Shown in pieces: positions 13,001-58,422 of a stretch of 64,000 nt of DNA (its first letter is position 1; every line of letters starts with the position of its first letter). Below the pieces are notes generated by a model that worked only from the letters and a program-made list of their open reading frames with translations, ran no database searches and had not been told where the DNA came from. The stretch comes from Photorhabdus khanii NC19 (lineage in GTDB: Bacteria > Pseudomonadota > Gammaproteobacteria > Enterobacterales > Enterobacteriaceae): the NCBI RefSeq assembly GCF_000517265.1, contig NZ_AYSJ01000014.1:484740-548739 (forward strand), written 5' to 3'. The position numbers were made by a program, and so were the translations under genes.

Positions 13001-13144
13001 TTCCGGCAGTGCAGACACCGGTAACATGCGATAACCGATAATTCCTGCCAGCAGGATTGCCACCATGAACAGTGTGGTGGCAACGGGTCGCAGGATAAAC
13101 AAGCGTGATGGCCCGCCGCCTGGAATTTGGGAGTTTACCTGCAT
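9998..13144 (-). CDS. mdtB: Multidrug efflux RND transporter subunit MdtB
   Basis: 1048 residues, the RND partner of MdtC. The start [20 protein letters not shown] matches the extended cytoplasmic N-terminus of E. coli MdtB, followed by the first membrane helix ([18 protein letters not shown]). The TM4 motif [17 protein letters not shown] and [17 protein letters not shown] are present, so the proton-relay residues look intact. The start codon shares one base with the mdtA stop codon, indicating translational coupling in the mdtABC operon. It forms the MdtB2C inner-membrane pump. Confidence 0.95.
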
Positions 13145-14358
13145 CAGGAATTCTCCGTTTTGCCGTGTTTTTGCGGCTGAATCTTATTTGCCATCGGTGT
13201 GACAATATCCACCTTAGCGCCATCTGTCAGGCGATCGATACCATCAGTCACCACTTTATCACCCGCCGTCAGGCCGGTATTGATAACAACCCGCTGTGTA
13301 TCCTGCAATTTGACTGAGACCAGATGTTTGCTGACTTTATTATCTTTACCCAATATCCAGACAAAATTCCCTTCATTACCCATTTGCAGAGCCGCATTTG
13401 GGATCACCACTGCGTTTTCCAGCGTATCAACTTTAATACGGATATTAACGAACTGATTCGGGAACAGAATGTCACTTTGATTGGCAAAACGGGCTTTCAT
13501 CTTAATGGTGCCGGTAGTCGCATCGATTTGATTATCAATACTCAGTAATTTTCCTTCGGCAAGTTGTTGCTGGTTGTTGCGATCCCATGCGCTGACAATG
13601 ACATCATGATTCGCTTTCTGAGCTTGCAAAACGGCATTGATATCGTTTTCGGGTAATGAAAACAGCACATCAGCCGGATCTGTTTGTGTGATAACAACAA
13701 TAGGCGAATTATTGCCACTGGCGATAAAATTCCCTACATCGATCTGTTTCAGACCCACCCGACCGGAGATGGGCGCAGTAATACGACTGTAAGTGAGTTG
13801 GAGTTTTGCACTGTCAATTGCGGCTTGATCAACTTTCAGATTGGCTTCATGTTGGCGGACAAGTGCACGCTGATTATCCATTTCTTGTTGGGAAATCAGT
13901 TTAGTGTTTGCCAGTTTCTGGTAGCGGTTTAGATCCTGACGGGCATTCGCCAGTATTGCCTCGTCTTTGGCAAGTTGGCCTTTGGCTTGTGCTAACTGAA
14001 CCTGAAAAGGACGAGGATCAATTTCTGCTAATAAATCACCTTGTTTAATCTGTTGACCTTCCTGAAAGTGCAGAGCCATAAGCTGACCTTCAACCCGGCT
14101 GGTCACGATAGCGGTATTGGCGGCCTGAATGGTGCCGAGTCCAGTCAGAAAGCGGGGTACGGTCTGCTCTTTTACGGTGGCAATTTGAACAGGAGGCAAC
14201 GGAGGGTGCCTTAAACCAGAGGATTGATCCGATGCGCCTGATTGTTGAAGGGCCGAAGGCGTTTTAAATTGGTGCCAGATAAATATAGCGGCAGCGATGG
14301 CAACAGCGGCCAGTACTGCACGGAAAAGGAGGATACGGCGTTTATTATTTTTATTCAT
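13144..14358 (-). CDS. mdtA: Multidrug efflux periplasmic adaptor MdtA
   Basis: 404 residues, a membrane-fusion protein. A short basic N-terminus precedes one signal-anchor helix ([19 protein letters not shown]). Next come the barrel-sandwich halves ([20 protein letters not shown] and [20 protein letters not shown]) around a coiled-coil hairpin (about residues 110-170), then beta-barrel and membrane-proximal domains. It links MdtBC to the outer-membrane channel. First gene of mdtABC-baeSR, transcribed leftwards from the gap at 14359-14741. GAAGAG precedes the ATG. Confidence 0.95.
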
Positions 14359-14744
14359 CTCTTCGACATGCTCTCAAATGCAAGATGTTGCTTAATTATG
14401 TCCGACTGTAATAGCGGTTTAATCGTATTCTATTAGTTTAGCCAGTGAGGATAGGCTAAAAAATGGAGGAAATGTGGAAAATATGTCAAGAAAGCGCTTT
14501 TTAAGTCAAATTAAGGTTTTTTTTGTCAGTTTCTTCGAGACTGCTCCAAGAATTATGTAAATGACTGCAGCTTGTTACTTTCATTTTTTTGCAGTTATTG
14601 GATGACATATTTTAATTTTTCATAAAATTCATGATGATTATAAAACAGAGGGAAAATGGAATAATACTAGAAAAAGGTCATATGACTTTTTTTTCAGGGA
14701 ACTTATAACCTAATGTAAGGAGCATGATATAAGAGAGGTATGTG
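14359..14744. other. Divergent intergenic region mdtA / nucleoside hydrolase
   Basis: 386 bp that must hold the mdtA promoter (minus) and the promoter of the plus-strand nucleoside hydrolase operon. It is AT-rich on the right side, marking the start of the accessory island. Apart from a possible BaeR box (listed separately) I see no further motif I would defend. Confidence 0.5.
14455..14473 (-). promoter_or_regulatory. Possible BaeR box upstream of mdtA
   Basis: On the minus strand this reads ATTTCCTCCATTTTTTAGC. It resembles the E. coli BaeR consensus TTTTTCTCCATNATTGGC: the CTCCAT core is exact and the 3' TTAGC resembles TTGGC with a 1-nt shift. It lies about 100 bp upstream of the mdtA ATG. 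The fit outside the core is imperfect. Confidence 0.4.
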
Positions 14745-15674
14745 ATGAGACACTTTATTATCGATACAGATACGGCTTCCGATGATGTGGTTGCATTGCT
14801 AATGGCGCTTCGTGAGCCATCAGTCTTTATTGAAGCTATCACTATTGTTGCAGGTAATTGTGTTATTGATCAGTGCAGAAAAAATGCATTAATTAGTATC
14901 GAAAAATCGGGGACATATATTCCTCCGGTATATGAGGGAATGAGTAAACCGTTATTTAGAGAACGCTATACTTCACATCATATTCATGGAAAAGATGGCA
15001 TGGGTGATATGAATTTACCGGAATCATCATTAGTATCAGAGGATAAACATGCAGTAGATGCAATTATTGATATTGTAAGAAAATTTCCTGGTGAGATAGA
15101 GATAATTACTTTGGGACCACTGACAAATTTAGCGATGGCGGTGTTAAAAGAACCTGATTTATATAAGTTGGTCAAAATCGTTTATATCATGGGTGGTGCT
15201 GGATTGAAACCAGGTAATATTACCCCATTAGCCGAATTCAATATTTATGCAGATGCTGAGGCAGCACATATTGTGTTGAACTCTGGATTACCTCTTGTTT
15301 TTTGTGGATGGGAGTTAGGTATGGAAGACGCTTTTATTAATGAATTCGATATGGATAAATTAAGTTCTATAAGTGATCTTGGTCAATTTGCTGTGAGATG
15401 TAATAGGACATTGATGGAATTCAATGCAGGAAGGTGTGATAAGAAAGGGTTTGATTTGCCTGACCCCATAACAATGGCGGTTGCTTTATATCCGAATGAA
15501 ATGATAGTCGATAAATTAGCGGTGTATGGCTATGTTGAGTATCAGAGTGAACGTTCATATGGGCATTTAGTGATTGATTCAACTCATCTTCTCAATAAAC
15601 CTCATAATATGACGGTCATTACGAAAATTAAAGGCAATGTATTTAAGCATAAATTGTTTACACTGTTATCGTGA
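14745..15674 (+). CDS. Nucleoside hydrolase, IUNH family
   Basis: 309 residues from the ATG at 14745, which has GAGAGG 6 nt upstream; a GTG one codon earlier is possible. The N-terminal DTDTASDDVVALLMAL is the calcium-binding aspartate cluster of inosine-uridine nucleoside N-ribohydrolases, ITLGPLTNLAMAV is the second family motif, and a catalytic-side FDLPDPITMAVAL segment follows. Such enzymes cleave ribonucleosides to base and ribose. I cannot tell purine from pyrimidine preference. It is followed after 26 bp by an adenosine deaminase-like gene and then a Crp-family regulator, which resembles the E. coli pairing of rihB with yeiL. Codon use is more AT-rich than the core genes. Confidence 0.88.
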   Translation: MRHFIIDTDTASDDVVALLMALREPSVFIEAITIVAGNCVIDQCRKNALISIEKSGTYIPPVYEGMSKPLFRERYTSHHIHGKDGMGDMNLPESSLVSEDKHAVDAIIDIVRKFPGEIEIITLGPLTNLAMAVLKEPDLYKLVKIVYIMGGAGLKPGNITPLAEFNIYADAEAAHIVLNSGLPLVFCGWELGMEDAFINEFDMDKLSSISDLGQFAVRCNRTLMEFNAGRCDKKGFDLPDPITMAVALYPNEMIVDKLAVYGYVEYQSERSYGHLVIDSTHLLNKPHNMTVITKIKGNVFKHKLFTLLS

Positions 15675-15700
15675 ATTCTAATGCTATAGGAGGATAAAAA

Positions 15701-16693
15701 ATGAGTTTTAATCTTGATTTACTGAAGAAAGTCGAATTACATACGCACCTTGATGCGGGGTTGAGTTATCATTTCATCAAAAAACAGGTTCCGGATATTA
15801 CCCAAAAATTATTTCGTGAAAAGTATATCGCGACTGATAAATGTCATAATCTAGGCGATTTCTTAAGTAGAATAGGCCCTTCATTAGATCTGTTGCAAAA
15901 AAAGAATGTGATAGCTGATGCTGTAGAAGATCTTTTTAGACAATTAAAAAACGATAATATAGTCTATGCTGAAATTAGATTCGCCCCTTTACTTCACCTT
16001 CGCCTGGGATTAAGTGATTGCGATATTGTTGAAACTGTTCTGGTGGCAATGGAAAATTCGTCGATTAAATATGGCATAGAGGCAGGTTTAATATTATGTA
16101 CCTTGCGGCATTTTTCAGAAGATCAAAGTTTGAGAACAGCTTATCTTGTAAATAAATATTCTCATTATGGTGTCGTTGCTCTTGATCTTGCTGCTGATGA
16201 GGCAAGATATCCGCTTAATGCTCATTTGAAAGCATTCAGACTGGTATTGGAAAATGGCGGAAATGTTATTGCGCACGCAGGAGAAGCAAAGGGAGCTGAA
16301 AGTGTGCGTGAGACTATGAATAAATTAAATATTTCTCGTATAGGTCATGGAGTAAGAAGCATTGAAAATCAAGGTGTTATTGATTCTCTTATAGAAAGAA
16401 ATATACATTTAGAAATATGTCCGACATGTAATATTGTTTGCGATATTTATGATACTTATGAAAACCACCCGGTTAATATTTTAAAGCAGATGGGGGTAAA
16501 TATTGGTATTAATACAGACACCAGAACAGTGGCAAATATAACTTTATGTGAAGAATATTTAAAGATTAATAGATGTTTTAATTGGCAGGATAGTGATTTT
16601 ATTGAAACGAATTTGAATGCATTACACGCCTCATTTTGTAGTAAAGAACTGAAGAATAAATTGGAAAAAGAAATAGTGATATTGCAATGGTAA
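15701..16693 (+). CDS. Adenosine deaminase-family protein
   Basis: 330 residues of the metal-dependent amidohydrolase fold. It has KVELHTHLDAG near the N-terminus (zinc ligands HxH), HAGEAKGAESV (zinc His and catalytic Glu), RIGHGVRS, CPTCNIV and INTDTRT (zinc Asp). The second position of the usual NTDD motif is Thr, reminiscent of the NTDNR version in some actinobacterial adenosine deaminases. The likely reaction is adenosine or deoxyadenosine to inosine, feeding the nucleoside hydrolase encoded just upstream. GGAGG precedes the ATG. Alternative: deamination of a related purine nucleoside, possibly linked to the neighbouring biosynthetic cluster. Confidence 0.85.
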   Translation: MSFNLDLLKKVELHTHLDAGLSYHFIKKQVPDITQKLFREKYIATDKCHNLGDFLSRIGPSLDLLQKKNVIADAVEDLFRQLKNDNIVYAEIRFAPLLHLRLGLSDCDIVETVLVAMENSSIKYGIEAGLILCTLRHFSEDQSLRTAYLVNKYSHYGVVALDLAADEARYPLNAHLKAFRLVLENGGNVIAHAGEAKGAESVRETMNKLNISRIGHGVRSIENQGVIDSLIERNIHLEICPTCNIVCDIYDTYENHPVNILKQMGVNIGINTDTRTVANITLCEEYLKINRCFNWQDSDFIETNLNALHASFCSKELKNKLEKEIVILQW

Positions 16694-16778
16694 AAAATTG
16701 GCAGAGAGTCAATGGAAATTTCTTAAATGTCATAATATACTTGGTCATGGCGTGATTTAAGAAAAGGGTAGGTTCAAT

Positions 16779-17450
16779 ATGTGCCGGGATAAAGAAAGAA
16801 AATTAACGTATTATGTGGATAAATATCATCTTGATAAGATTATTTCACCAGAGCTTATGGAGAAATCAGATGTGGTAGAAATGAAGAAAAATGTTTATCT
16901 TACACATCAATTATCAAAATTTACTCATCTCTATATTTTGGTTGAGGGTAAATTGAAAGTTGAATATTATAATATTAATGGGAAATTCTTTGTTTTTGCA
17001 TTAGCCACTCCACTTTTTCTTATTGGCGATTTAGAGCTTTTTCATTCCCAGGGAGATAGCATAATGAATACTATCTCTGCTCAGGAGCCGTCAGTACTCC
17101 TATCAATGCCCTTAGAAAGGGTAAAAATATTTGGTTTAACGGATCCTCGATTTCTTGAATTTGTTTGTAAGCAACTCAGTAATAAGCTTTTTGAATCTTC
17201 TTTATTGCAGTCTGGCGCATTCTTGACTGTTGAAGATAAATTAAAGAGATTTCTTTATTATAACGCGAAAAAAAAGGGTTCGATATTTGTATTAGAAAAA
17301 AGAGAGAATTTAGCTGCTATTCTCGGGGTTTCAGTTAGACAATTAAATCGGGCTATTAAAAGCTTGAATGAGAAAGAGATAATTATGTCAAAGAATAAAC
17401 AGGTTAAAATTATTGATTGTAGACTTTTTGGTAATAATATTGAATTTTAA
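16779..17450 (+). CDS. Crp/Fnr-family transcriptional regulator, YeiL-like
   Basis: 223 residues: an N-terminal cyclic-nucleotide-binding-like beta-roll (LYILVEGKLKVEYYNINGKF, then PLFLIGDLELF), a dimerisation helix, and a C-terminal winged helix (ENLAAILGVSVRQLNRAIKS as the recognition region). The ligand-contact residues of CRP are not conserved and there is no Fnr cysteine cluster, so the signal is unknown. Size and layout resemble E. coli YeiL, whose gene neighbours a nucleoside hydrolase. It is 85 bp after the adenosine deaminase gene with some promoter-sized space, and may control that pair and/or the divergent biosynthetic operons to its right. Confidence 0.8.
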   Translation: MCRDKERKLTYYVDKYHLDKIISPELMEKSDVVEMKKNVYLTHQLSKFTHLYILVEGKLKVEYYNINGKFFVFALATPLFLIGDLELFHSQGDSIMNTISAQEPSVLLSMPLERVKIFGLTDPRFLEFVCKQLSNKLFESSLLQSGAFLTVEDKLKRFLYYNAKKKGSIFVLEKRENLAAILGVSVRQLNRAIKSLNEKEIIMSKNKQVKIIDCRLFGNNIEF

Positions 17451-17486
17451 ACAATGAAAATTAAAATCCATATATTCTATCTCAAA

Positions 17487-17523
17487 ATAGCTGCATTGTT
17501 AGCAGGATGAACAATGCAGCTAT
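17487..17523. terminator. Convergent-gene hairpin between regulator and asparagine synthetase
   Basis: Perfect 14-bp inverted repeat, arms ATAGCTGCATTGTT (17487-17500) and AACAATGCAGCTAT (17510-17523) around a 9-nt loop, placed between two converging genes. There is no strong T run on either side, so it may be an imperfect or bidirectional terminator. Confidence 0.6.
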
Positions 17524-17539
17524 AAATGAAGTGATAATA

Positions 17540-19072
17540 TTACGATATGAAATTAAAGTAACCAGATTCTGAGAAATCTTTGCCGGATTCTTTGAAACGT
17601 TGCTTCGGTAATGGATAACCAAAAGAGAGATATTTTTCAGCAAAATACAGTGAGCTTTGATTGGTTAATCCAATAGAATTAAGATTTTTAACAATGTTAT
17701 TTGGCAGATCGCATTTAATATCTTTAACATAATCAATGATAGTATTTTTTACACCGCTACCATCCGGCATTCTTATTTTTGGCCGGTCAATAATATATTC
17801 AGGTATTTTTCCTCTGAATGCTTCCCGTAGAATATGTTTTTCTACTCCGTTACTCAGTTTGTAAGAAAAATCCAGGCTTAAAACATAAGGAACCAGTGCT
17901 GAGTCCATAAATGGCACTCTTGCTTCAACGGTATTTCTCATGCTTGCCCGATCAACTCTTTGTAAATCAGTCCTGTGAAGATTATTTAATCGATAGAGAG
18001 AGAGATTATGGGGTTCTGTATGCGTTTTAAATAAATCATAGCCGGCAAAAATTTCATCGCTACCTTCTCCACATAAAGCGATTTTAAAACCAAGGCGATT
18101 AGCAATATAGTAACCAAAATGAGCAATAGTCGAGTCAATAGCATCAATTTGTTCGAAGAATTCACCGTAATAAACTGAATCTTGGATATTATTTATTAAT
18201 TCTTCCTGGGTAAAAGTATATATAATATGTTTTATATTATTTTCAGAACAATATCTTTGGGCGATCTCAATGTCCTTTGAGCCGGGTAAACCAAATGAGA
18301 TTGCCGTAACATCGTGGTGATATTTTTTGGCGAGATAAAGCACGATGGTACTGTCTATACCTCCGCTAAACATAATTGATACGGGCAGATCTGTATCAAC
18401 TCTCTTTTTGACAGCATTATCTAAAAGTGAGTAGATTTTTTCTTTTGCCTGTTCGAAATTATCGCTGCTTGCTAAGATAGTTGAGTTATAGTGAATATAT
18501 TTCTCACTGGTAAAGCCATCGAAAATTGAACCGGGTTCAATGGGTTTAATTTCTGAGCTAAACCCGATCAATGATTTTATTTCTGACGCCACATACCAAT
18601 TACCTTCTTTATGAGTGTAATATAGCGGCTTTATACCAACATGATCTCTGCCTAGTAAGAATTTATTATTCTTATTGTCAAATAGAATAAAACTAAACAT
18701 TCCGTCCAATTTTTTAATAAATGATTTTCCATAGCAAATATAAGCAATCAGGGCGACTTCAGCATCTCCACCATTTTTAAATTGATAACCTTGTTCAATT
18801 AATTCATTCCGAAGAGACTTATAGTTATAAATCTGACCATTCAGAACAAGATGAAGATCATGTTCTTGATTTGAAATAGGTTGATATGCTGAGTCGCGTT
18901 CGACAATAGCAAGCCTGTTTGTGGCGATTGAAAAGTTATTTCTGACAATTTTCTCATTAAAACGAGATAAATCACCCCGATGAGATATTTTTGACATTAT
19001 AGTCTGTAGCTTATTCTCAATATCATCGATAAGCTTGTTTTCTGTATTAAAAACACCACCAATTCCACACAT
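17540..19072 (-). CDS. Asparagine synthetase B-type amidotransferase in biosynthetic cluster
   Basis: 510 residues starting MCGIGGVF, so Cys2 can act as the glutaminase nucleophile. GATase II motifs are intact: LNGQIYNYKSLR, GGDAEVALIAY, GRDHVGIKPLYY and ASEIKSL. The synthetase half has the PPi loop MFSGGIDSTIVLYLA, CGEGSDEIFAGYD and DRASMRNTVEARVPFMDS. It should adenylate a carboxylate and amidate it with ammonia from glutamine. It might make asparagine, but its place as last gene of an operon with two EPSP-synthase-fold proteins and a RidA protein suggests a pathway-specific acceptor. The beta-lactam-forming members BLS and CarA show that the family can make other bonds. AT-rich compared with core genes. 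Confidence 0.85.
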   Translation of the reverse strand: MCGIGGVFNTENKLIDDIENKLQTIMSKISHRGDLSRFNEKIVRNNFSIATNRLAIVERDSAYQPISNQEHDLHLVLNGQIYNYKSLRNELIEQGYQFKNGGDAEVALIAYICYGKSFIKKLDGMFSFILFDNKNNKFLLGRDHVGIKPLYYTHKEGNWYVASEIKSLIGFSSEIKPIEPGSIFDGFTSEKYIHYNSTILASSDNFEQAKEKIYSLLDNAVKKRVDTDLPVSIMFSGGIDSTIVLYLAKKYHHDVTAISFGLPGSKDIEIAQRYCSENNIKHIIYTFTQEELINNIQDSVYYGEFFEQIDAIDSTIAHFGYYIANRLGFKIALCGEGSDEIFAGYDLFKTHTEPHNLSLYRLNNLHRTDLQRVDRASMRNTVEARVPFMDSALVPYVLSLDFSYKLSNGVEKHILREAFRGKIPEYIIDRPKIRMPDGSGVKNTIIDYVKDIKCDLPNNIVKNLNSIGLTNQSSLYFAEKYLSFGYPLPKQRFKESGKDFSESGYFNFIS

Positions 19073-19107
19073 AGTGAATTCCTTTGGTTAAGAGTTATCA
19101 ATGATAT

Positions 19108-20463
19108 TTAAATGTCTTCTGGTATAGGGCTGGAATATTTTAGTTCATTTACATTGGCACCTAATGTGGAGATCTCGGAGAAATATTCAGGATAGGTTTG
19201 ACCAACATGATATGGTTCACGAATAATGAGCGGTGCATCACAATGCAAACCTACTGTCGTGAGAGCCATGATTAATCCATGATCGTAATGACCATCAACG
19301 ATAACGCCGCCTTTATATCCATATGGATTGCCATAAATAATTAATTGATCCAGTTTCTCTTCTGATCTGACACCTATTTTGTCTAATTCCCGTCGAAAAT
19401 CAGAAATTCTGTCTGATTCTTTATAACGGATATGTTCAATGTTATAAAAAACGCTCTTACCCTCGGCAAACGCCGCTAATGCGGCGAGGGCAGGTACGGC
19501 ATCGGGTGCCAGTGAACCATCGAAATCCTGCGCTTTTATTGCTCCTCCGGAGCGAATATTGAGACAATCTTCCCGGATAAAGTTGATTTTAGCTCCACCG
19601 TTAATTAAATAGTTCACAACGGCCCCATTACCTAATTCCTCCTCAAAGAAACCGTTCAGGGTGACGTCAGAATTAAGTGAGGCACAAAGTGCAAGGATTG
19701 CCGCAGTACTGGCTGGATCGGCACCGACATTAAATTCTGATGCGATAAATCGACTATTTCCTGTGGTAAAGAAATGGCGGAATTCGTCATCATATTCAAT
19801 ATTAATACCGGCCTTACGCAGGTTATTAATTGTAGTATGCACCATTGATGGTGCAGTTATTGTATCGGTCACTTTTATATGGAGATCCTGTTCACTAATG
19901 GCACCTAAATAAAGTAATCCACTCAGGAATTGAGAACTTTTTCGGCATGAAACTTCCGTGTAACTACCGATGTTTCTGTTTGATTTAATACTTATCGGCA
20001 AATGTGAATCGGGTCCAACGGCGGTGCATTGAATGTTGAGTAATTTTAGTGCATTAACCATTTCTGATTGTGAGCGGGTGCCAAGAGAATAGCTGTAATC
20101 TGTAATAAATTCGACATCAGGCAGATAACCGGATACTCCCATTAATAGCCGTAATACCACGCCGGAATTACCTGGATTGAATATGATTTTTTTATTAATT
20201 TTTTTAACGTTTATGCCTGTTACGATGGTCCTTGAAATCTCATTATTAAATGATGCGCCTAAACGGGAACAATTTAATTTCATCGCTGTTGTGTTGTTCC
20301 CTGATGCCATGTTATTTATTTTACTTGTTCCTTCCGTCAATGATGCTATTAGGATGGCACGGGTTGAGGAACTTTTGGATGCCGGTAAAGTTATTGAGCC
20401 GTTTAATGACTTGGTGTTATTTATTTCAATAAATGGCGGATGATTATTTCCATAGTATTTCAT
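19108..20463 (-). CDS. EPSP-synthase-fold protein 1 (AroA-like, divergent)
   Basis: 451 residues, AroA/MurA superfamily throughout its length. Retained E. coli AroA features: the first loop SKSSSTR (K30, S31, R35 for K22, S23, R27), NPGNSGVVLR, SSQFLSG (S169-S170-Q171), APDAVPALAALA (D313) and RYKESDR (K340, E341, R344). Altered by my alignment: R124 is replaced (SLGTR segment), the DHR motif reads DHG (R386 lost), and K411 is Gln (QTYPEYF). These residues bind the PEP phosphate and carboxylate in AroA. It is therefore unlikely to be the housekeeping enzyme. Second-last gene of the minus-strand operon, 27 bp after the other AroA-like gene. Confidence 0.85.
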   Translation of the reverse strand: MKYYGNNHPPFIEINNTKSLNGSITLPASKSSSTRAILIASLTEGTSKINNMASGNNTTAMKLNCSRLGASFNNEISRTIVTGINVKKINKKIIFNPGNSGVVLRLLMGVSGYLPDVEFITDYSYSLGTRSQSEMVNALKLLNIQCTAVGPDSHLPISIKSNRNIGSYTEVSCRKSSQFLSGLLYLGAISEQDLHIKVTDTITAPSMVHTTINNLRKAGINIEYDDEFRHFFTTGNSRFIASEFNVGADPASTAAILALCASLNSDVTLNGFFEEELGNGAVVNYLINGGAKINFIREDCLNIRSGGAIKAQDFDGSLAPDAVPALAALAAFAEGKSVFYNIEHIRYKESDRISDFRRELDKIGVRSEEKLDQLIIYGNPYGYKGGVIVDGHYDHGLIMALTTVGLHCDAPLIIREPYHVGQTYPEYFSEISTLGANVNELKYSSPIPEDI

Positions 20464-20490
20464 ATTTTTATCTCGTTTTTACATTGTTAG

Positions 20491-21795
20491 CTAACTTATT
20501 CTGGCACCAAGAGAACTTAAAGATTGGATAAATCCAGGAAAGCCATCATCTAATTTATTAATATTATTAACCGTTGTTCGCTCTCTTGCCCCTAGTGATG
20601 CAATAATATTGGACGCGCAAATCCGATGATCATAATAGCTGAATACCTCAACGCCTCCATTGAGTGGCCCGTTGCTGTGGATCCTTATTTTGTTGAAAGC
20701 ACCAGTGTCATTAAAAATTAAATAACTTTTTCCTCCCATCATTCGTATATTTTCATTAATAATGAATGCTCGTTGACATTTATGGTTATTTATCGCATTA
20801 AGCCCGGAAAATGTGATATCTCCCTTGCCATTAATCGCTGCGGCGATAATATTAGTGGCAACAGAGGGAAGTTCATTTAAGTAAATTTCACCTGTAATCG
20901 CGTTACGCTCTCTTGCTAAATTAATATTGAGTTCATTCTTCGTTGAGTTATATTCTAAATTTATACCAAATCTTTTATATATGTTAAATAATACGCTTTC
21001 GTTAATGGTATTTCCCTGAGAGTAACGTTTTATAGTTACTTTGCTTGGCCGATTAATACTTAATATTGACGAAGTAATGTAGCTTAGTGATGTGAAATCA
21101 GTAGGAATGTTAATGATAATATCCCTTGCTTGATATGCAGTTGAAATAAATGCATTACCTATGCGGGTGATTTTACTCCCCAGCAATGCCATCATTTTAA
21201 TTGTTATATCAATATATCCATTATTGGTTTCACTGTCGTTGTTAATAATGATACTTTTCCCTTTAATAAATGGCGAGACAAGAAGAGAGAATGAGAGAAA
21301 CTGGGTACTTTTATTGAAGTTCAATGGGGATTGTGAGGGATATATCCTTCTGGAAACAACAACGATATTCTCTTGTTGCTTTTCTGCAAATACATTCAGA
21401 TATGAAAAAAATGCTTCGTCATACAGACTTTCTCTGTTAAACAGGGAGTCATTGCATTTTATATAAACTTCTTTTTCTGTTAGTGAGGCTAAGGCGACAC
21501 TTATTCTGAATAGCATGCCAGAACCATTAGCATGAATAATTCCATGACAATGATATATTGGATGTGCCCCTTTCAATGTGATGTGATTTTGACTTCTATC
21601 CAGAATTTGCAGACCAAATTGTTGTAACGCGGTAAGTAAATCTTCTGTCTCGGTACACCATGATAAATTATTTATTGTTGTTTTCTCTTCATTTAACAGT
21701 GCTAATAGTAGAGCCCTTTGGATATGAGGCTTAGATGAGGGTATGGTTATTTCCCCATTAAGAGTGGAACCAGGGAGCACGTTAATTTTATTCAT
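20491..21795 (-). CDS. EPSP-synthase-fold protein 2 (AroA-like, highly divergent)
   Basis: 434 residues with the same two-domain AroA-like layout but stronger loss of catalytic motifs. The first loop is SKPHIQR (Ser23 position is Pro), NGSGMLFR covers the NAGT region, and KSTQFLS matches SSQ. YYDHRICASN keeps the DHR arginine. The KESDR motif is replaced by NHKCQRA, the D313 position reads LPS, and the K411 region reads DDGFPGF. A normal PEP-transfer mechanism is therefore doubtful. It could be a regulatory or structural partner of the adjacent paralogue, or catalyse a different reaction. It lies between the RidA-like gene (50 bp gap) and AroA-like 1. Confidence 0.8.
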   Translation of the reverse strand: MNKINVLPGSTLNGEITIPSSKPHIQRALLLALLNEEKTTINNLSWCTETEDLLTALQQFGLQILDRSQNHITLKGAHPIYHCHGIIHANGSGMLFRISVALASLTEKEVYIKCNDSLFNRESLYDEAFFSYLNVFAEKQQENIVVVSRRIYPSQSPLNFNKSTQFLSFSLLVSPFIKGKSIIINNDSETNNGYIDITIKMMALLGSKITRIGNAFISTAYQARDIIINIPTDFTSLSYITSSILSINRPSKVTIKRYSQGNTINESVLFNIYKRFGINLEYNSTKNELNINLARERNAITGEIYLNELPSVATNIIAAAINGKGDITFSGLNAINNHKCQRAFIINENIRMMGGKSYLIFNDTGAFNKIRIHSNGPLNGGVEVFSYYDHRICASNIIASLGARERTTVNNINKLDDGFPGFIQSLSSLGARIS

Positions 21796-21845
21796 GCCAA
21801 GCCTCCAGGTAGATCAATTTCCATTGATATTGTTATTTTATTCAA

Positions 21846-22244
21846 CTATTTGCTGTCGATAGCAATAGTGGTAATTTCAACATAATGTTCTGGCTTTACC
21901 ATCGATTTAACCGCAATCGTTGTATTAACAGGACGTATATCGCCAAATTTCTCGTTAAATGCCCGGCAATAATCATCAAAATGTTCGAAATCAGTTAAAT
22001 GCGTTACCGTACTGACAACATCGGTTAGTTCTGTGCCAAGCTCTTTTAAATATTTTTCAATTTTTTCTATAATAAATAGCGTTTGTTCGTAAGCATTTTC
22101 CCCTATAACATTGCCATCGCCGTCTGAGGCGACACATCCTGCAATAAAGATTTGATTACCAACCCTTTTCCCTCTTGAGTATCCCATTTTGTTTTCCCAT
22201 GGAGATGGGCTGAATACTGTTTTTTTAAATTCATGAGACGACAT
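21846..22244 (-). CDS. RidA (YjgF/UK114) family protein lacking the catalytic arginine
   Basis: 132 residues with the trimeric RidA fold signature: YSRGKRVGNQIFIAGCVA near the N-terminus and the conserved HYVEITTIA C-terminal strand. RidA enzymes deaminate reactive enamines and imines such as 2-aminoacrylate. Active members have Arg in the PARTT-type motif; here the corresponding stretch is RPVNTTIAV, so Arg is replaced by Asn, as in several Rid subfamilies that lack this activity. First gene of the four-gene minus-strand operon; its promoter must lie in 22245-22670. A dedicated pathway role is likely but the reaction is unknown. Confidence 0.85.
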   Translation of the reverse strand: MSSHEFKKTVFSPSPWENKMGYSRGKRVGNQIFIAGCVASDGDGNVIGENAYEQTLFIIEKIEKYLKELGTELTDVVSTVTHLTDFEHFDDYCRAFNEKFGDIRPVNTTIAVKSMVKPEHYVEITTIAIDSK

Positions 22245-22670
22245 AAATACTCCTATAGATAAAAAATATCCGGGAACAATAAATTAATTTAAACAATTTA
22301 TTCCATTAACTAAAAAATATCCGTAAATTGATGTTGCATTAATAAAAGTATATAAATGATGATATGTCAAAGTAAATTAAACATTAAAATAGAATAGTTT
22401 TTGATTTTTTTATTTAAAAAAGTAATAAATGTTTTTTCTGACGGTGAAGTTATTTTTTTGTAAAAAAAATTTATTGAAATTTAATTAGTTACGTATTAAA
22501 GACTTTAAGTTGATGGTTTTTATATTTGAAAGTTACCCTTGTTGAGACTATACATGATAATTAGTTTTTTTAATTCTAGTATAAAATTTTATTATTAATA
22601 AATATAGGTTGTTTTCGGAGTGAAAAAGATAAGTATATATTAATAAAAAGCAACTAATGGTGGGGTAGAT
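22245..22670. other. Divergent promoter region of the biosynthetic cluster
   Basis: 426 bp, very AT-rich, between the RidA-like gene (minus) and the ATP-grasp gene (plus). It must drive both halves of the cluster. I see poly-T and poly-A tracts but no clear palindromic operator for the Crp-family regulator. Confidence 0.5.
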
Positions 22671-23894
22671 ATGGGCGTTTTTATTTTTCTTGAAGTAAGA
22701 CCGACTGAATGCTTGGCAATTGATTATATTAGATATTTAGGATTTTCTCCGGTTTTGTTGACTTCAATGGCATCAATGAATAAAGGATTATATGATGATT
22801 TAAAAAAGGAATTATTCGATAATATTTACTATAAAAATACCAGAAGTAGCACAGATAATATTAATTTAATTAAAGACAAAAAAAATACTGCTGCCACGAT
22901 CCTTGGCTGCTATGATGATATGATGATCCCGGCGTCCGAAGTGGCGTTAGAATTCGGTTTACCTCATCCCGATCTAAAGGGTTTGAGGAATGCATTCAGT
23001 AAGAAAAATGTCAGGGATATTCTTGTACAATATGGTTATTATCAACCTGCCTACGAGGTTTTTTCTTATAATAATATTCCAGAAAATCCTAAAGTTCCTT
23101 TTCCATTTGTTATTAAGCCACTCCGTGATGCGGGAGCTTATGGGGTTTCACTTTGCAAATCTAAAGATGATTATCGCAATGTGATTTCAGACATTTCGTC
23201 TAGCGGCACGATGTCAATGCTCGGTAAAGTTAATGAGGAATTCTTGATAGAAGAGTTCCTTCAAGGCAATTTTTATGGGGCTGAATTGATCTATAATCAT
23301 GATAAATGGCATTTAATTGGCATCAATAGAATTTTTGTTTCTCCTGATGATGGCTTGTGTATGATAGGTTTATCTCATCCTGCTGATGATCTGTCTGAAG
23401 TTGAATTTGCTATTGCCTGTGAGCTTGTGAAAGGGTGGGTAACCGCTCTGGGGTTACGGGGTGGTGCAATAAATGTTGAATTTATTTATACATCTCATGG
23501 GCCTGCATTAGTTGAAATAAACTTGCGTATAGCGGGTGCCAGAGCGGCTCAACAGATTTTCATGTCCACCGGGGTGAATATGGTCAAATATTTGGTTGAT
23601 TTCGTTTGTGGTATAGAAAGCACTATATCACCAGAATTAGTAATGACCTATCCATTCGTCGCTGATGCCTTTATTTTCCATCGTGGCGAAGCTATTGTGA
23701 ATGATATTAGCGTAGACTCTGATTCCCCTTATTTTATTTCCGCCGGGTTTAAAAAGACACCTTTCAGTATTTCGTCGAAAAATAAAAACTTTGGTTCTAT
23801 TGTCGGTTATGCCCTGGCTCATGGTGATAGCTGTACAGAAGCTATGGAAAATGCAATGCGCATTGCTAATAGTGTGCAATTAAAAACAAATTAA
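22671..23894 (+). CDS. ATP-grasp ligase (L-amino acid ligase-like)
   Basis: 407 residues with ATP-grasp landmarks: the ATP-binding strand PFPFVIKPLRDAGAYGVSL, IEEFLQGNFYGAEL, and the metal/catalytic region PALVEINLRIAGARAAQQ, close to the EFNLRIGG-type motif of BacD-like dipeptide ligases and carbamoyl-phosphate synthase-like folds. It would form a carboxylate-amine bond through an acylphosphate, for example joining an amino acid to the product of the opposite operon. GGTGGGG precedes the ATG. It is followed after 15 bp by an EamA exporter gene, forming a two-gene operon. Confidence 0.85.
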   Translation: MGVFIFLEVRPTECLAIDYIRYLGFSPVLLTSMASMNKGLYDDLKKELFDNIYYKNTRSSTDNINLIKDKKNTAATILGCYDDMMIPASEVALEFGLPHPDLKGLRNAFSKKNVRDILVQYGYYQPAYEVFSYNNIPENPKVPFPFVIKPLRDAGAYGVSLCKSKDDYRNVISDISSSGTMSMLGKVNEEFLIEEFLQGNFYGAELIYNHDKWHLIGINRIFVSPDDGLCMIGLSHPADDLSEVEFAIACELVKGWVTALGLRGGAINVEFIYTSHGPALVEINLRIAGARAAQQIFMSTGVNMVKYLVDFVCGIESTISPELVMTYPFVADAFIFHRGEAIVNDISVDSDSPYFISAGFKKTPFSISSKNKNFGSIVGYALAHGDSCTEAMENAMRIANSVQLKTN

Positions 23895-23909
23895 TAAGAG
23901 ATCATAATT

Positions 23910-24755
23910 ATGGCTATTTTGATGGGATTGATTTCGGCATTGTGTTGGGGAAGTACTGATTTTTTAGCCGGGCAAGCGGCAAGAAAAATCGGTGTGGCTA
24001 AATCATTATTCTATAGTCAGTTATTTGGTTTTTCTGTTTTATCTTTATTGCTGTTTTTTTATTTTAAGATGTCGTTTGTCAATGCTAGTTTTTTTCAATT
24101 GATCATTTGTATTATTGCTTCTGTTTGCAATTTAATGGCAATGGTATTTCTACTTAAAGCGTTATCGATTGGTAAAGCTTCTATTGTTGCACCGATTGTT
24201 TCGCTTTATGGAGCAGTGACGACTATTTTGTCACTGATAAGTGGGAAACCGATCACCGCTTTGGTTTTATTTAGTCTATTTATGTGTGTTGTGGGTGCAT
24301 GTTTAACCAGTGTGCCGAAATCTAAAGATGGACAGCGAGAATCGTCGGGTTCAATTCTCTTTGCATTTTTATCTTCGCTGATGTTTGGTTTAGGTTTCTG
24401 GTTGCAAGGGGAATTTGCTGTGAGAGATCTTGGTGTTATCAATGCGTTATGGGTTTACTATTTAACCGCTGTAGTGCTTTTATTTCTCACATTGCTGAAA
24501 AATGGGGATTTATCTTTACCGCCAGTTTCAATTATAGCGTTGGTTTTTTTAATTAGTTTCTTTAGCCTGATAGGGTTTTCCTCATTGGCTTACGGTTCTG
24601 CAACTGGGCAAGTTGCGATTGTTACTGTTCTGAGTTCATTAGCAAGTGGAGTCACCGCTTTGTTAGGTTTTTTTATTCGTGGAGAACGATTGAGCCGTAT
24701 TCAGTGGATGGGCATTATTATTATAATCGCAGGGGTCATTTTGTTGAAGTTGTAG
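23910..24755 (+). CDS. EamA/DMT-family transporter, likely product exporter
   Basis: 281 residues, almost entirely hydrophobic, with about ten predicted membrane helices in two EamA repeats. The start ILMGLISALCWGSTDFLAGQ is typical of the drug/metabolite transporter superfamily, and the second repeat has YGSATGQVAIVTVLSSLASG, then GERLSRIQWMGIIIIIAGV. Such proteins often export amino acids, small peptides or metabolites. Being the last gene of the two-gene ATP-grasp operon, it plausibly exports or confers resistance to the cluster product. Confidence 0.85.
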   Translation: MAILMGLISALCWGSTDFLAGQAARKIGVAKSLFYSQLFGFSVLSLLLFFYFKMSFVNASFFQLIICIIASVCNLMAMVFLLKALSIGKASIVAPIVSLYGAVTTILSLISGKPITALVLFSLFMCVVGACLTSVPKSKDGQRESSGSILFAFLSSLMFGLGFWLQGEFAVRDLGVINALWVYYLTAVVLLFLTLLKNGDLSLPPVSIIALVFLISFFSLIGFSSLAYGSATGQVAIVTVLSSLASGVTALLGFFIRGERLSRIQWMGIIIIIAGVILLKL

Positions 24756-24891: not shown

Positions 24892-26424
24892 CTATGTTGA
24901 TTCCTCTGCTATTTCTAATTGCCAACCTGTAACGTTATGCCAGTATTCCTGCTCTTTTTCCAGATCAAGTTGCATCAGGGTGTTTGCTGATAAGTAATTG
25001 TAAGGCAGATAGAGTGCCCAATGACCATCATCAGTAATCAGTCTGAGTGATTCAGGGGTGGTTGTGGATTGACGTTGATTATTGAGTAAAGTCGCCAGCC
25101 GCAGGATTTGAATTAATGGCAGATATTGTTTTTTCTTAAATAGATTGAATCTTGGCAAATCATCCAGTTTTATTGTTTTGCGGTGACAGCGAACCAATGT
25201 TGCCAGCAGTAATTGTTGTTCCTGATTAAAGCCGGGCAAGTTGGTATTTTGCAGAATATAAGCAGAGTGTCGCTGTAATCCGCTTAAGTTAATACTCAGC
25301 CCAACTTCGTGCAGCATTGCCGCCCAGTGTAAAATCGCTTCGAGTTGGGGCTGCACCAGCTTTGGGTTCTGGATGGCCCACTGTTGGTAAAGCAATTCAG
25401 TGGTATCGAGCACACGCTTTGCCTGTTCTCTGTCGATATTATAGTGTTCAGCCAGGCTTTTTGCCGTTCTCCGGCGGATGTCCTGGTGGCGGAAGCGACC
25501 TTCCATTTCATATAAAACACCTTCACGTAGAGCGCCATCTGATAGCTGTAGCTCTTTTATATGCAGGGCATCGAATACACCGCATAAGATAGCCAGGCCG
25601 GGAACAAAAACGTGTTTACGATCATCGGATAATGCAGGTAAGTCGAGGGTTGTAAATTTTTTGAATTTAAGCACCTCTTTGACCAACATTTCCAGCCGTT
25701 CAGGTGTGATTAATCCATCCTTTTCTCCCATTGCGACCAGTACTTCATAAACGGCTTTAATTGTCCCGGATGCGCCGAGCGCGGAGTTCCAGCCTTTTAT
25801 GCGGTATTGCCATGAGAGGTTCTCTAGTTTTTGAGCGGCTTCAAGCCGTGCTCTGCGGAATTTCTCCGCACTGATTTCACCGTCGGAAAAGAATTGGTGA
25901 GAAAAACTGATGCATCCCATCCGGCGGCTTTCTATTAATAAGGGTTCAAAATTTTCGCCGATCACCAGTTCAGTAGAGCCACCGCCAATATCAATCACCA
26001 GCTTACGATCTTGTTCTGGCTGAGTGTGTTCGACTCCCATGTAGATCAGGCGGGCTTCTTCGTGGCCGGAAATAATTTCAATCGGATAGGGGATGACCTC
26101 TTGTGCCCGCCTGATGAATTCTTTGGCATTGCTGGCTTCACGTAAGCTGTGAGTGCCGACCAGACAGACGTTATCTGCCGGAAAACCTTGTAGCCGTTCA
26201 GCAAACAGCGCAAGGCAAGCCAGGCCGCGCTCCATGGCTTCTTCGCTTAATTCGTTTTTTTGATTCAGGCCGTAAGCAAGGTAGACATGTTGTTTTAATC
26301 GGCCAAGGATCTGCAATGCGCCGTTAACGATTCGTGCAATGATCATATGGAAACTGTTTGAACCCAGATCGATAGCGGCAATTTCCATTGGTCGGGGCGT
26401 AGATTTATCGTGTGTTAGCGGCAT
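24892..26424 (-). CDS. ppx: Exopolyphosphatase Ppx
   Basis: 510 residues (E. coli 513). The actin-like ATPase-fold phosphate motif [19 protein letters not shown] is at the N-terminus and [13 protein letters not shown] marks the second nucleotide-fold loop. A C-terminal HD-like helical region contains [20 protein letters not shown]. It removes terminal phosphates from polyphosphate chains and can act on pppGpp. It lies 3 bp downstream of ppk in the same operon, as in E. coli. The island on the left ends just before it. Confidence 0.96.
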
Positions 26425-45585: not shown

Positions 45586-45727
45586 TTAAACATCATCTGA
45601 TCTGTAAAACTGACTCGACGAGCAATATGGGTTGTTTATATACAAAAGACAGACTAGATCTGACAGTCATCCTATTTCTGAAAGCTTAAAATCCTGTTAT
45701 CAAAATAATTGGGTTTCCTTCTCCACT

Positions 45728-46171
45728 ATGAACGATCATCTAACTGATATATTACTGACTGAGCTGGCAGCAAAGCTGGGTATGAGTAAACTCTCCTTTG
45801 ATAAAGAGGGGAATTGTTTCTTATTGGTCGATAACGCTATACCTATTATCTTGCGTCGCCAGGAGGAACATTTAGCTATTATTGGTCAGATAAATATGGA
45901 ACTTCCAGACTCAGCGGATGTTGATACTCTGCGTTATTTACTCAATACAGCCCTTAATCCATTAAATAGTCAGATGCCGGGTATTGGCTGGTATCAGGAA
46001 CTTGGGGTTGTTGCGTATAGAATATTAACCATACAACACCTAACGGCCAATAAGTTGGAAGATAAATTGTCTGAATTTATTACCTGGATAAATGAATTTC
46101 CAACATCACTATCACAGAAAAATACCCTACAACCATCTTATGACAGGAGAATGATTTATGGTCGAGTTTAA
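45728..46171 (+). CDS. Type III secretion chaperone (CesT/SycT-like class I)
   Basis: 147 residues from the ATG at 45728 (MNDHLTDILLTELAAKLGMS); a TTG 96 bp upstream would only add unrelated sequence. The size, acidic character, N-terminal helix plus beta strands (GNCFLLVDNAIPIILRRQEE, then LAIIGQINMELP) and amphipathic C-terminal helix fit class I T3SS chaperones. It overlaps the start of the effector gene by 14 nt, the usual chaperone-effector arrangement. It would bind the effector N-terminus and keep it secretion-competent. Assignment rests on size, predicted fold and context. Confidence 0.7.
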   Translation: MNDHLTDILLTELAAKLGMSKLSFDKEGNCFLLVDNAIPIILRRQEEHLAIIGQINMELPDSADVDTLRYLLNTALNPLNSQMPGIGWYQELGVVAYRILTIQHLTANKLEDKLSEFITWINEFPTSLSQKNTLQPSYDRRMIYGRV

Positions 46172-47324
46172 GAATCTTGCTGTATTACAGAATGCCCCAT
46201 TGCAAATACAAGAACAGGTTCGTAATGAAGGTAAACTGCAAATTGCTGGCCGTGAATATCATATTAATGCAGATCTGCAACAGGTTTTGCGTACGCACCC
46301 AAAAAGTGATCACTTTGCCCGTTTCTTGGAAGGAATAAGTAAATTTTTCTTAAGTGGCAGTGGTGCTTCCGTAGCTAAAGAGGCGACTAAAACCCTCTTT
46401 TCTACAGAGGGGGCGCAACAACAGCGTCTCCAGAGTACAGACTCGGTCAGCCATGCCCGTATGTTGTTTAAGGATGGTAGTTTACAGACATCGGAACAAG
46501 TGCTGGAGAGATTAAAAACAGCAGATACCCATAAAATGACGGAAGCAATGTTGGCTGAACATTCTCTTTTGCTACAGCGTGCTATGTCAGAGTCACTACT
46601 GAATACAGAAACGGGTAAAAAATTACAGGAGCTAATGGGACACCAGGCAACAGCTCAACTGACCAGTAAACTGGTTGCCCCTGAGCAGTCTTTTGTCAGC
46701 TTTGAACAATTACGTAAGCAACCTTCGGCTTCTGGCGCTGTCGCTAGTCTGGAGCCAATTTTGATGATGGAAGAAAAGAATTTGCTGGCAGCTCAGCAGC
46801 ATCAAGAGGCAATAAAAGGCCAAGATCTTAACCAAGGTATTTACGCGGAAACCCTTTCTGAAGATTTTTATAACCCAGGCAAGTTAACTGATGATGTTGA
46901 CAAGGCGGCCGCTTGGATTCTCAAGGCATCCACTTCAGGTGGTAATGAATGGAGTAACTTCACGGCGCTACTGAAGGAATACACCCATAATGGAAAGGAT
47001 TTAACGGATAGCCAAAATCTTAAGGAGCTTCATCATAGGTTGGTTCCAAACATAGAGCGTGATTATCGTGGTCCAGCAATCAGCGGGGGGAGCCTTCCTT
47101 CCAGTATAGGTGGTGCGGCGTTGCTGGCACGTCATCTGGAAACTTTGGATAAGGAAGATCCTCAGATTGGGAAACAACTCTTTGCGGCTGTCGTTGGTTT
47201 TCACGGTTTCACTGATGGCAATGGCCGGATGGGGCGCCTCCTCTATGCGCTGACAGAATTAAGAGCGGGTCAATTCACTCCTCTTTCTGTCACTACAGAA
47301 AACGCTTTGCATGGCATCCACTAA
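46158..47324 (+). CDS. VopS-like Fic-domain type III effector (Rho GTPase AMPylator)
   Basis: 388 residues with AGGAG before the ATG. The C-terminus carries the Fic motif HGFTDGNGRMGRLLYALTEL, with the catalytic His at residue 349, exactly 39 residues from the end. In Vibrio parahaemolyticus VopS (387 residues) the catalytic His is 348, the same distance from its end, and I recall the same Gly replacing the usual Pro. VopS AMPylates a switch-I threonine of Rho, Rac and Cdc42, collapsing the host actin cytoskeleton. The N-terminal part (residues 1-120) would hold secretion and chaperone-binding signals. Inserted between bamC and purC with its chaperone. Confidence 0.85.
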   Translation: MVEFKNLAVLQNAPLQIQEQVRNEGKLQIAGREYHINADLQQVLRTHPKSDHFARFLEGISKFFLSGSGASVAKEATKTLFSTEGAQQQRLQSTDSVSHARMLFKDGSLQTSEQVLERLKTADTHKMTEAMLAEHSLLLQRAMSESLLNTETGKKLQELMGHQATAQLTSKLVAPEQSFVSFEQLRKQPSASGAVASLEPILMMEEKNLLAAQQHQEAIKGQDLNQGIYAETLSEDFYNPGKLTDDVDKAAAWILKASTSGGNEWSNFTALLKEYTHNGKDLTDSQNLKELHHRLVPNIERDYRGPAISGGSLPSSIGGAALLARHLETLDKEDPQIGKQLFAAVVGFHGFTDGNGRMGRLLYALTELRAGQFTPLSVTTENALHGIH

Positions 47325-56592: not shown

Positions 56593-57260
56593 GCCGATTG
56601 AGTCACCAAAGAACCATTATCCAGATATAGCCTGCGTTTTGCATATCCGGCGACAACGTGATCATGCGTCACCAGGATGATGCCACATCCACTATGATGT
56701 AATTCAGTAAAAAGCTGCATGAGATTGGTTGCATTGGTGGTATCCAATGCACCGGTAGGTTCATCGGCAATAATAAATTTCGGATTATTAATTAATGCGC
56801 GGGCCACAGCAACGCGTTGCTGTTCTCCCCCTGAGAGATGGCGCGGGTATTTAGCTAATAACGGATTAAGATGGAGGCGATCTATTAAGTAATTGAAGCG
56901 TTTTCTGTCATATTCGAAGTTTCTTTTTAAATAGTACATGGGCATCAGGATATTTTCATCAATGCGGTAGTTATCGAGCAGGTTATAGTTTTGAAAGATA
57001 AAACCAAAATATTTCCGCCGTAAAAGTGCTAATGAGTGAATCTTTTGCTGAGTCACCTTGAGGTCGTTAATAAGATATTCTCCTGCACTGGCGATATCTA
57101 AAAGCCCTATGAGATTCAATAAGGTACTTTTCCCTGAGCCGGAGCGCCCAAGAATGGCAACATAGTCATTCTGGCCGATTGTTAAACAAATATTTTTCAG
57201 GACAAGATGTTTTTTACTCTCATTACCGTAGGTCTTGCAGATATTATTTAGCGTTATCAT
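56589..57260 (-). CDS. MacB/LolD-type ABC ATPase
   Basis: 223 residues from ATG 57260 ([20 protein letters not shown]), which has a GGGGG element upstream; a longer frame would run inside the adaptor gene. Walker [10 protein letters not shown] at 38-46, signature [15 protein letters not shown], Walker [13 protein letters not shown] with catalytic Glu. ATPase partner of the FtsX-type permease downstream and the adaptor upstream; starts inside the last codons of the adaptor gene. Confidence 0.92.
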
Positions 57261-58407: not shown

Positions 58408-58422
58408 CCATCTTAGTCGTTG

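Follow-up and report, generated by a model that had tools for sequence, protein, structure and literature searches.

The window analysed here is a 64,000-nucleotide stretch of the 5.23-Mb genome of Photorhabdus khanii NC19 (contig NZ_AYSJ01000014.1, positions 484,740 to 548,739). Six genes at 17540 to 24755 of this window are judged, with about even confidence, to form a biosynthesis-and-export cluster for a small carboxamide-bearing, glutamine- or asparagine-like unusual amino acid, which is coupled to a second amino acid. The minus strand encodes an AsnB-like glutamine-dependent amide synthetase of 510 amino acids (AsnB, 17540 to 19072), an enzyme of the 5-enolpyruvylshikimate-3-phosphate synthase (EPSPS) fold that belongs to a separate group (AroA1, 19108 to 20463), a second and more divergent EPSPS-fold enzyme (AroA2, 20491 to 21795), and a RidA-family protein (21846 to 22244). 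The plus strand encodes an ATP-grasp ligase (22671 to 23894) and, 15 bp further on, an EamA-family transporter that is presumed to export the product (23910 to 24755). The families were assigned with Pfam and NCBIfam, with AsnB scoring 343 bits against TIGR01536 (cut-off, 267) and AroA1 scoring 216 bits against PF00275. The coordinates agree with the layout given in an earlier sequence-only reading of this DNA (the original prediction), namely, a minus-strand series RidA-AroA2-AroA1-AsnB with gaps of 50, 27, and 35 bp that diverges from ATP-grasp-EamA across 426 bp. This AT-rich intergenic region (22245 to 22670) presumably holds promoters, and the shared promoter proposed for it found no backing in a sigma-70 consensus scan, which returned one site against a mean of 4.3 in shuffled sequences. 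The locus is bounded by mdtA (13144 to 14358) and ppx (24892 to 26424), both named from their translations, and its G+C content is low (0.327 to 0.373 across five 2-kb steps spanning 14001 to 24000, versus 0.363 to 0.484 in the other 27 steps of the window). The host aroA and murA genes are located elsewhere in the genome, and no EPSPS-family genes besides these, AroA1, and AroA2 were found there. With its own aroA in place, the host does not depend on AroA1 and AroA2 to make aromatic amino acids.

AroA1 and AroA2 are encoded together in every locus seen, and the two have lost different portions of the EPSPS active site. Residues are numbered according to Escherichia coli EPSPS, as read through the host AroA, and were counted in 14 sequences of each protein (13 Gram-negative and 1 Streptomyces) and in 23 ordinary EPSPSs (20 of the 27 loci L012 to L038 and three of four host AroA proteins); their roles in binding phosphoenolpyruvate (PEP) and shikimate 3-phosphate (S3P) and in catalysis are those that we take from established EPSPS work. 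All 14 AroA1 sequences have R386 replaced by Gly (Ala in Streptomyces), K411 by Gln, T97 by Val (Ile in Streptomyces), and N336 by His, and Y200 is also altered, while K22, S23, R27, R124, S169-S170-Q171, D313, K340, E341, R344, and H385 are retained. All 14 AroA2 sequences have S23 replaced by Pro, N94 by Gly, D313 by Ser (Thr in Streptomyces), K340 by His, E341 by Lys, and K411 by Asp; they retain K22, R27, R124, R344, H385, and R386 and carry the motifs SKPHxQR and INNHKCQR. The ordinary EPSPSs have D313, E341, R344, H385, and R386 in 23 of 23 sequences. Position 411 is Thr in 5 of these 23, so the loss of K411 is not diagnostic by itself. AroA1 thus lacks Arg386, the PEP-binding arginine of EPSPS, and AroA2 lacks the catalytic Asp313 and Glu341. 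AroA2 also scores below the aroA equivalog cut-off of TIGR01356 (148.2 versus 287.25), whereas AroA1 scores above it (295.6; 288.5 for the Streptomyces microflavus AroA1 at L096:13212-14585). Although AroA1 passes this cut-off, the fixed changes in both active sites make ordinary EPSPS chemistry unlikely for either protein. The original prediction was right about the fold, but enolpyruvyl transfer of the NikO/PolA kind cannot be assumed, because neither protein keeps the full EPSPS active site. The two enzymes may act in two successive altered reactions or jointly.

In a maximum-likelihood tree, AroA1 and AroA2 formed two fully supported clades of eight sequences each, and AroA2 was joined with moderate support (90/97) to a further group, here called the EX family, from other Burkholderia genomes (L088 to L091). 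The tree was built without the Streptomyces proteins and with the Photorhabdus sequences thinned, and one host AroA (hostAroA_L071) and two MurA sequences (MurA_L073 and MurA_L074), whose translations were out of frame, were left out of both the tree and the counts. The EX family resembles AroA2 in S23P, N94G, K340H, and E341K (three sequences) but is only 23 to 28% identical to AroA2 and 24 to 27% identical to AroA1, and the stretches that carry it have no AsnB or RidA match. The EX gene at L089:9529-10911, like those in L088, L090, and L091, has SKPETQR and HK motifs. It adjoins genes for a PhyH dioxygenase, an aminotransferase, and two ATP-grasp proteins in L089 and a PhyH gene in L088, and the EX locus is possibly another undescribed cluster.

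The remaining proteins of the cluster fit amide and peptide bond formation to different degrees. AsnB is full length, its closest solved chain is E. coli AsnB (1ct9), and the C2 glutaminase and SGG(I/L)DS synthetase sites are intact in six of six aligned orthologs. The RidA-like protein has Asn in all six aligned orthologs at the place of Arg105, which we take to be the residue catalyzing imine deamination in RidA and which is Arg in 2dyy and 6izh; its best solved match, 3i7t, also lacks this Arg. Among solved proteins, the nearest relatives of the ATP-grasp ligase by profile search are the L-amino-acid ligases BL00235 (E value of 8e-10) and BacD (1e-5, a weak match), and no NCBIfam ATP-grasp model reached its cut-off.

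Whether the six genes also co-occur in other genomes had been set beforehand as the check that could refute the original prediction. It did not refute it, as they lie together in all 13 genomes found through AroA2 (8 of the insect-killing genus Photorhabdus, 1 Rahnella, and 4 Burkholderia). A scan of a collection of 84,980 species with an alignment of AroA2 sequences from Photorhabdus, limited to two peptide patterns, returned nine loci, i.e., six in Photorhabdus (one of them, Photorhabdus akhurstii L065, additional to the window genome and its six cluster-bearing relatives described below) and one each in Burkholderia catarinensis, Burkholderia sp. SRS-46, and Rahnella laticis. The pattern INNHKCQ is present in 13 of 13 AroA2 orthologs and missing from the Streptomyces protein, so more distant relatives would escape the scan, which also missed three genomes (G008, G809, and G820). 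The B. catarinensis, SRS-46, and R. laticis loci each have all six genes, with identities of 64 to 69% for AroA1, 66 to 67% for AsnB, 74 to 78% for RidA, 47 to 54% for ATP-grasp, 63 to 67% for EamA, and 51 to 53% for AroA2. Genus searches found AroA2 orthologs in 4 of 65 Burkholderia genomes, two of them new (L086 and L087) and both with all six genes, and in 1 of 14 Rahnella genomes, which is the R. laticis already found; four further genomes among the 65 have the weaker EX family alone. Three layouts occur: Photorhabdus and Rahnella have the divergent one, L066 and L086 have AroA2-AroA1-AsnB-RidA-ATPgrasp-EamA, and L068 and L087 have RidA-AroA2-AroA1-AsnB-ATPgrasp-EamA. In an even draw of 398 genomes from the phylum, for which up to four candidates per genome were scored, neither AroA2 (E value up to 1e-40) nor AroA1 (up to 1e-95) was found in the 397 other genomes, and a search of viral contigs and phages with a single AroA2 protein as the query found no relatives.

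The eleven best AroA2 matches in 369 class-level genomes, not counting the window genome itself, were 23 to 26% identical over nearly the full length, and those checked have the full EPSPS catalytic residues. Five plasmid aroA genes (from Caballeronia, Erwinia, Moraxella, Paenibacillus, and Streptomyces sp. NBC_01708) have no annotated adjoining AsnB, RidA, or ATP-grasp genes in gene tables that are incomplete, and they were set aside. The Caballeronia plasmid aroA has an EamA transporter gene about 3 kb away, and that of Streptomyces sp. NBC_01708 (L101:8914-11732) overlaps gpmI, the gene for phosphoglycerate mutase, and the two apparently share an operon with genes for small hypothetical proteins. 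Two Burkholderia genomes encode a further EPSP-synthase-domain protein of 176 to 180 bits (G424:C13:345851-347092 and G426:C8:48460-49701), which gave no tblastn match to AroA1 or AroA2 in the stretches L092 and L093.

The region between mdtA and ppx was retrieved from all 11 other Photorhabdus genomes. AroA2 is present in six of them at 86 to 87% identity, each time with all six genes. Remnants were found in three of the five relatives that lack the cluster (parts of EamA and the regulator in L054, part of the nucleoside hydrolase in L056, and parts of ATP-grasp and the regulator in L057), and the other two, L053 and L055, retain only nucleoside genes. The six-gene locus is therefore probably ancestral in Photorhabdus and was repeatedly lost. 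Across 21 pairs from seven Photorhabdus genomes, the median ratios of nonsynonymous to synonymous substitutions (dN/dS) are 0.067 for AsnB, 0.081 for AroA1, 0.106 for AroA2, 0.029 for RidA, 0.143 for ATP-grasp, and 0.062 for EamA, i.e., all six genes are under purifying selection. The dS values between the window and the six relatives are 0.49 to 0.80 for the cluster and 0.50 to 0.83 for mdtA and ppx. The low dN/dS together with the flank-like dS indicates long vertical maintenance of working proteins, and the cluster has probably been kept since the ancestor of the genus. A recent horizontal arrival in the window lineage was rejected on the basis of the flank-like dS and the remnants in the three relatives without the cluster. 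The co-inheritance of the six genes and the selection acting on them, like their family membership and the fixed active-site changes, are shown by the data.

The original prediction covered 14745 to 24755 and was correct for all six genes, their strands, and their families, but it left three further genes inside this range undescribed. These plus-strand genes encode a nucleoside hydrolase (14742 to 15674; PF01156), an adenosine deaminase (15701 to 16693; TIGR01430, 243.8 bits versus a cut-off of 216.6), and a Crp-family regulator (16779 to 17450), whose best NCBIfam match, YeiL, scores 63 bits, below the cut-off of 180. Three of the six relatives with the cluster (L047, L049, and L052) have either no such module or just a regulator fragment of it, and it occurs without the cluster, whole in L053 and, with the deaminase matching as two separate pieces, in L055. 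Its genes were not found in the retrieved stretches around the Burkholderia and Rahnella clusters. Fragments of the module are also seen in L049, L052/L063, L054, L056, and L057. The module is separable from the six genes and probably not part of the pathway; its genes were rejected as pathway members because they segregate independently of the cluster.

A relative of the cluster outside the Gram-negative genera is found on a plasmid of S. microflavus (NZ_CP054927.1), for which the first clue was a weak match of 27% identity over 42% of AroA2. The gene order there is an AroA2-like gene, aroA, asnB, a small gene, a nonribosomal peptide synthetase (NRPS) gene, and a third aroA. The first aroA product is 42 to 46% identical to AroA1 (42% to that of the window) versus 25 to 32% to the four ordinary EPSPSs compared, and the asnB product is 44% identical to AsnB. 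The AroA2-like protein shows 25.6 to 26.8% identity to AroA2, 28 to 29% to the EX family, and 22 to 26% to ordinary EPSPSs, so its assignment to AroA2 is based on signature residues and gene position rather than on identity. Both S. microflavus proteins match the signature residues of AroA1 and AroA2. The third aroA (L096:21195-22517) has nearly complete EPSPS catalytic residues, with K340 replaced by His, and could serve self-protection or an additional pathway step.

A single-module NRPS adjoins the cluster in three loci, those of B. catarinensis, R. laticis, and S. microflavus. The B. catarinensis and R. laticis enzymes consist of adenylation (A), thiolation (T), and thioesterase (TE) domains without an oxidase (Ox) domain and are encoded in the same direction as the neighboring cluster genes. 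The S. microflavus enzyme has A, T, and TE domains by Pfam and an insert with a SagB-like stretch that scores 28 bits, below the cut-off of 78 bits; it is 38 to 39% identical over 97% of its length to proteins on other Streptomyces plasmids, including that of Streptomyces lavendulae (eight records). The Photorhabdus genome encodes its own protein that we take, from its architecture, to resemble an indigoidine synthetase, a label that none of the matches carries in its annotation. Its A domain is 48% and 39% identical, and its T-TE part 45% and 40% identical, to those of the B. catarinensis and R. laticis enzymes, respectively, while five other NRPSs of the same genome show 30 to 38% in the A domain, with T-TE matches of no more than 81 residues. 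The own-genome protein and all three cluster NRPSs contain the motifs FDAAQWE, LQxVPTLL, and (I/V)NxYGP. IdgS, an indigoidine synthetase of S. lavendulae, loads L-glutamine, which its TE domain cyclizes and releases as (S)-3-aminopiperidine-2,6-dione (PMC10989907). The NRPS evidence supports, without proving, a glutamine-like amide amino acid as central to the pathway. The own-genome protein (G000:C13:325504-329139, in L105) also resembles the Streptomyces cluster NRPS along almost all of its length, at 36% identity, and it might act in trans with the cluster.

From these data, we infer the substrates, the order of the steps, the product, and its biological role as follows. AroA2 and AroA1, with active sites that have drifted from carboxyvinyl transfer, would build a carbon skeleton from some metabolite; AsnB would amidate a carboxylate, with glutamine as the nitrogen donor; the RidA-like protein would handle an unstable intermediate or serve as an accessory protein; the ATP-grasp ligase would make a peptide or amide bond; and EamA would export the product. 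In two relatives, the A-T-TE enzyme, which is similar to an indigoidine synthetase without its oxidase, would instead or additionally activate the amide amino acid and perhaps cyclize it to an imide, and in Streptomyces, an enzyme with an oxidase-like insert would take the same role. That the product acts as an antimetabolite is a guess drawn from the analogy to bacilysin. A broader proposal is that AroA1 and AroA2 jointly carry out a non-EPSPS reaction, as new functions on the EPSPS fold with partly complementary sites, and, together with AsnB, produce amide amino acids of a new class from Streptomyces to Photorhabdus; this is tentative, and we consider it rather doubtful.

A number of points weigh against the cluster making and exporting such an amide amino acid. 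AsnB might make plain asparagine, and the EamA protein could move something unrelated. Relatives of RidA, ATP-grasp, and EamA were not found in the 45-kb S. microflavus stretch (tblastn, E value up to 1e-3), and the identity of the AroA2-like protein there to AroA2 (25.6%) does not exceed that to the EX family (28%) and barely exceeds that to ordinary EPSPSs (22 to 26%). No NRPS was found around L086 and L087 or among the open reading frames beside the cluster in the window and in L068, the other seven Photorhabdus loci not having been searched. The reading of the NRPS motifs as a glutamine pocket, finally, is tentative.

The amide or small peptide put forward in the original prediction fits AsnB and the L-amino-acid-ligase-like ATP-grasp protein in a co-inherited unit and may be shikimate-derived, but the nucleoside origin it also suggested is not supported. 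A nucleoside antimetabolite would require an AroA-like enzyme that enolpyruvylates a nucleotide, with the adjoining nucleoside hydrolase and adenosine deaminase providing self-protection or recycling, and a precedent exists in the nikO and polA products, which convert PEP and UMP (uridine monophosphate) to 3'-enolpyruvyl-UMP (PMC5365060). The three nucleoside-module genes, however, come and go independently of the six, and a nucleoside product is therefore not indicated: the set is not intact in three of six cluster-bearing relatives, is wholly or mostly kept in two relatives without the cluster, and was not found in the Burkholderia and Rahnella stretches retrieved. In addition, the nine genes that lie between mdtA and ppx include no match to the radical S-adenosylmethionine (radical-SAM) octosyl-acid synthase family, the rest of the genome not having been searched for it, and we regard a nucleoside product as quite improbable. 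A product that is not a peptide is unlikely as well. Here, ATP-grasp would link a cyclic ketone or acid derived from shikimate to an amine or an amino acid, as in mycosporines, and AroA1 would eliminate on S3P without the addition of PEP. A PEP-free reaction would fit the AroA1 pattern, in which K22, S23, R27, S169-S170-Q171, D313, and K340 are kept and R386 and K411 are lost, if these residues lie on the S3P and PEP sides, respectively; Y200 and N336 are also changed, however, the ATP-grasp protein resembles dipeptide ligases, and a kinase, a reductase, and a dehydratase are missing among the six genes.

Two further explanations take the cluster out of antimetabolite biosynthesis or take AroA1 out of the pathway. 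A compatible solute or primary-metabolic dipeptide amide, similar to N-acetylglutaminylglutamine amide (NAGGN), whose system combines an amidotransferase of the AsnB type with a ligase, could be suggested by the 211.4 bits that AsnB scores against the NAGGN amidotransferase model TIGR03104, but this is far under the cut-off of 570.1, the two EPSPS-like enzymes would have no role, and the rarity of the genes (none in the 397 other phylum genomes at the thresholds used) is unlike housekeeping; little weight is given to it. We give almost none to the possibility that AroA1 is an extra, inhibitor-resistant EPSP synthase that protects the producer by target duplication. The TIGR01356 score of AroA1 and the third aroA of the Streptomyces locus, with its nearly complete catalytic residues, would agree with such a role, which was rejected on the loss of R386 in 14 of 14 AroA1 sequences against its retention in 23 of 23 ordinary EPSPSs; the source genome also has no EPSPS-family genes beyond aroA, murA, AroA1, and AroA2. 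A library of antiphage defense systems gave no match for AroA1, AroA2, AsnB, ATP-grasp, or EamA, and partial matches of the adenosine deaminase to CARF-ADA, of the regulator to a TIR effector model, and of the RidA-like protein to PD-T4-2_B were taken as shared domains.

Elsewhere in the window, translations point to a 1,463-amino-acid NRPS-like protein with neighboring genes resembling those for HlyD, an ABC-ATPase, and a MacB-type permease (55360 to 62814) and to a protein with an HxFxDGNGRxGR motif, presumably Fic-like, preceded by a small protein (45632 to 47324).

EPSPS, the target of glyphosate, is among the best-studied enzyme folds, and a co-inherited pair of paralogs that have lost different catalytic residues points to unrecognized chemistry on this fold. 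Because AroA1 passes the aroA equivalog cut-off, it will be annotated automatically as EPSP synthase, and the cluster may be missed. As a compact marker, the gene set could be used to mine four genera or more for small amide metabolites, perhaps of a new family.

The statement in the original prediction that no described system has this set agrees with searches of open-access PubMed Central (PMC) text, among whose listed papers none seems to describe it. EPSPS homologs in cyclohexanecarboxylate pathways are a related lead, for which the same text gave no confirmation; the passages of PMC8788734 deal with labeling and definitions. The portions of the pantaphos paper (PMC7858074) that were retrieved contain ATP-grasp genes and mention EPSP synthase only as the glyphosate target. 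The cluster shares with the bacilysin pathway an ATP-grasp protein of the L-amino-acid-ligase type, the class of the alanine-anticapsin ligase BacD, and the logic of a small exported peptide, although the sequence match to BacD is weak. The bacilysin set has, to our knowledge, no EPSPS-like, AsnB, or RidA genes. Asparagine synthetase B resembles the cluster AsnB, which is full length and above the TIGR01536 cut-off but is encoded within this cluster. The indigoidine synthetases IndC, BpsA, and IdgS share A and T-TE domains with the cluster-adjoining NRPSs, as compared through the own-genome look-alike; they have an Ox domain, whereas two of the three cluster NRPSs have none, and the window cluster has no adjoining NRPS. 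The polyoxin and nikkomycin pathways, compared by description, likewise recruited an enolpyruvyl transferase (PolA or NikO) to secondary metabolism; they use one transferase followed by the radical-SAM enzyme PolH and the phosphatase PolJ (PMC5365060), whereas the cluster described here encodes two EPSPS-fold enzymes, both changed in catalytic residues, and lacks a radical-SAM neighbor.

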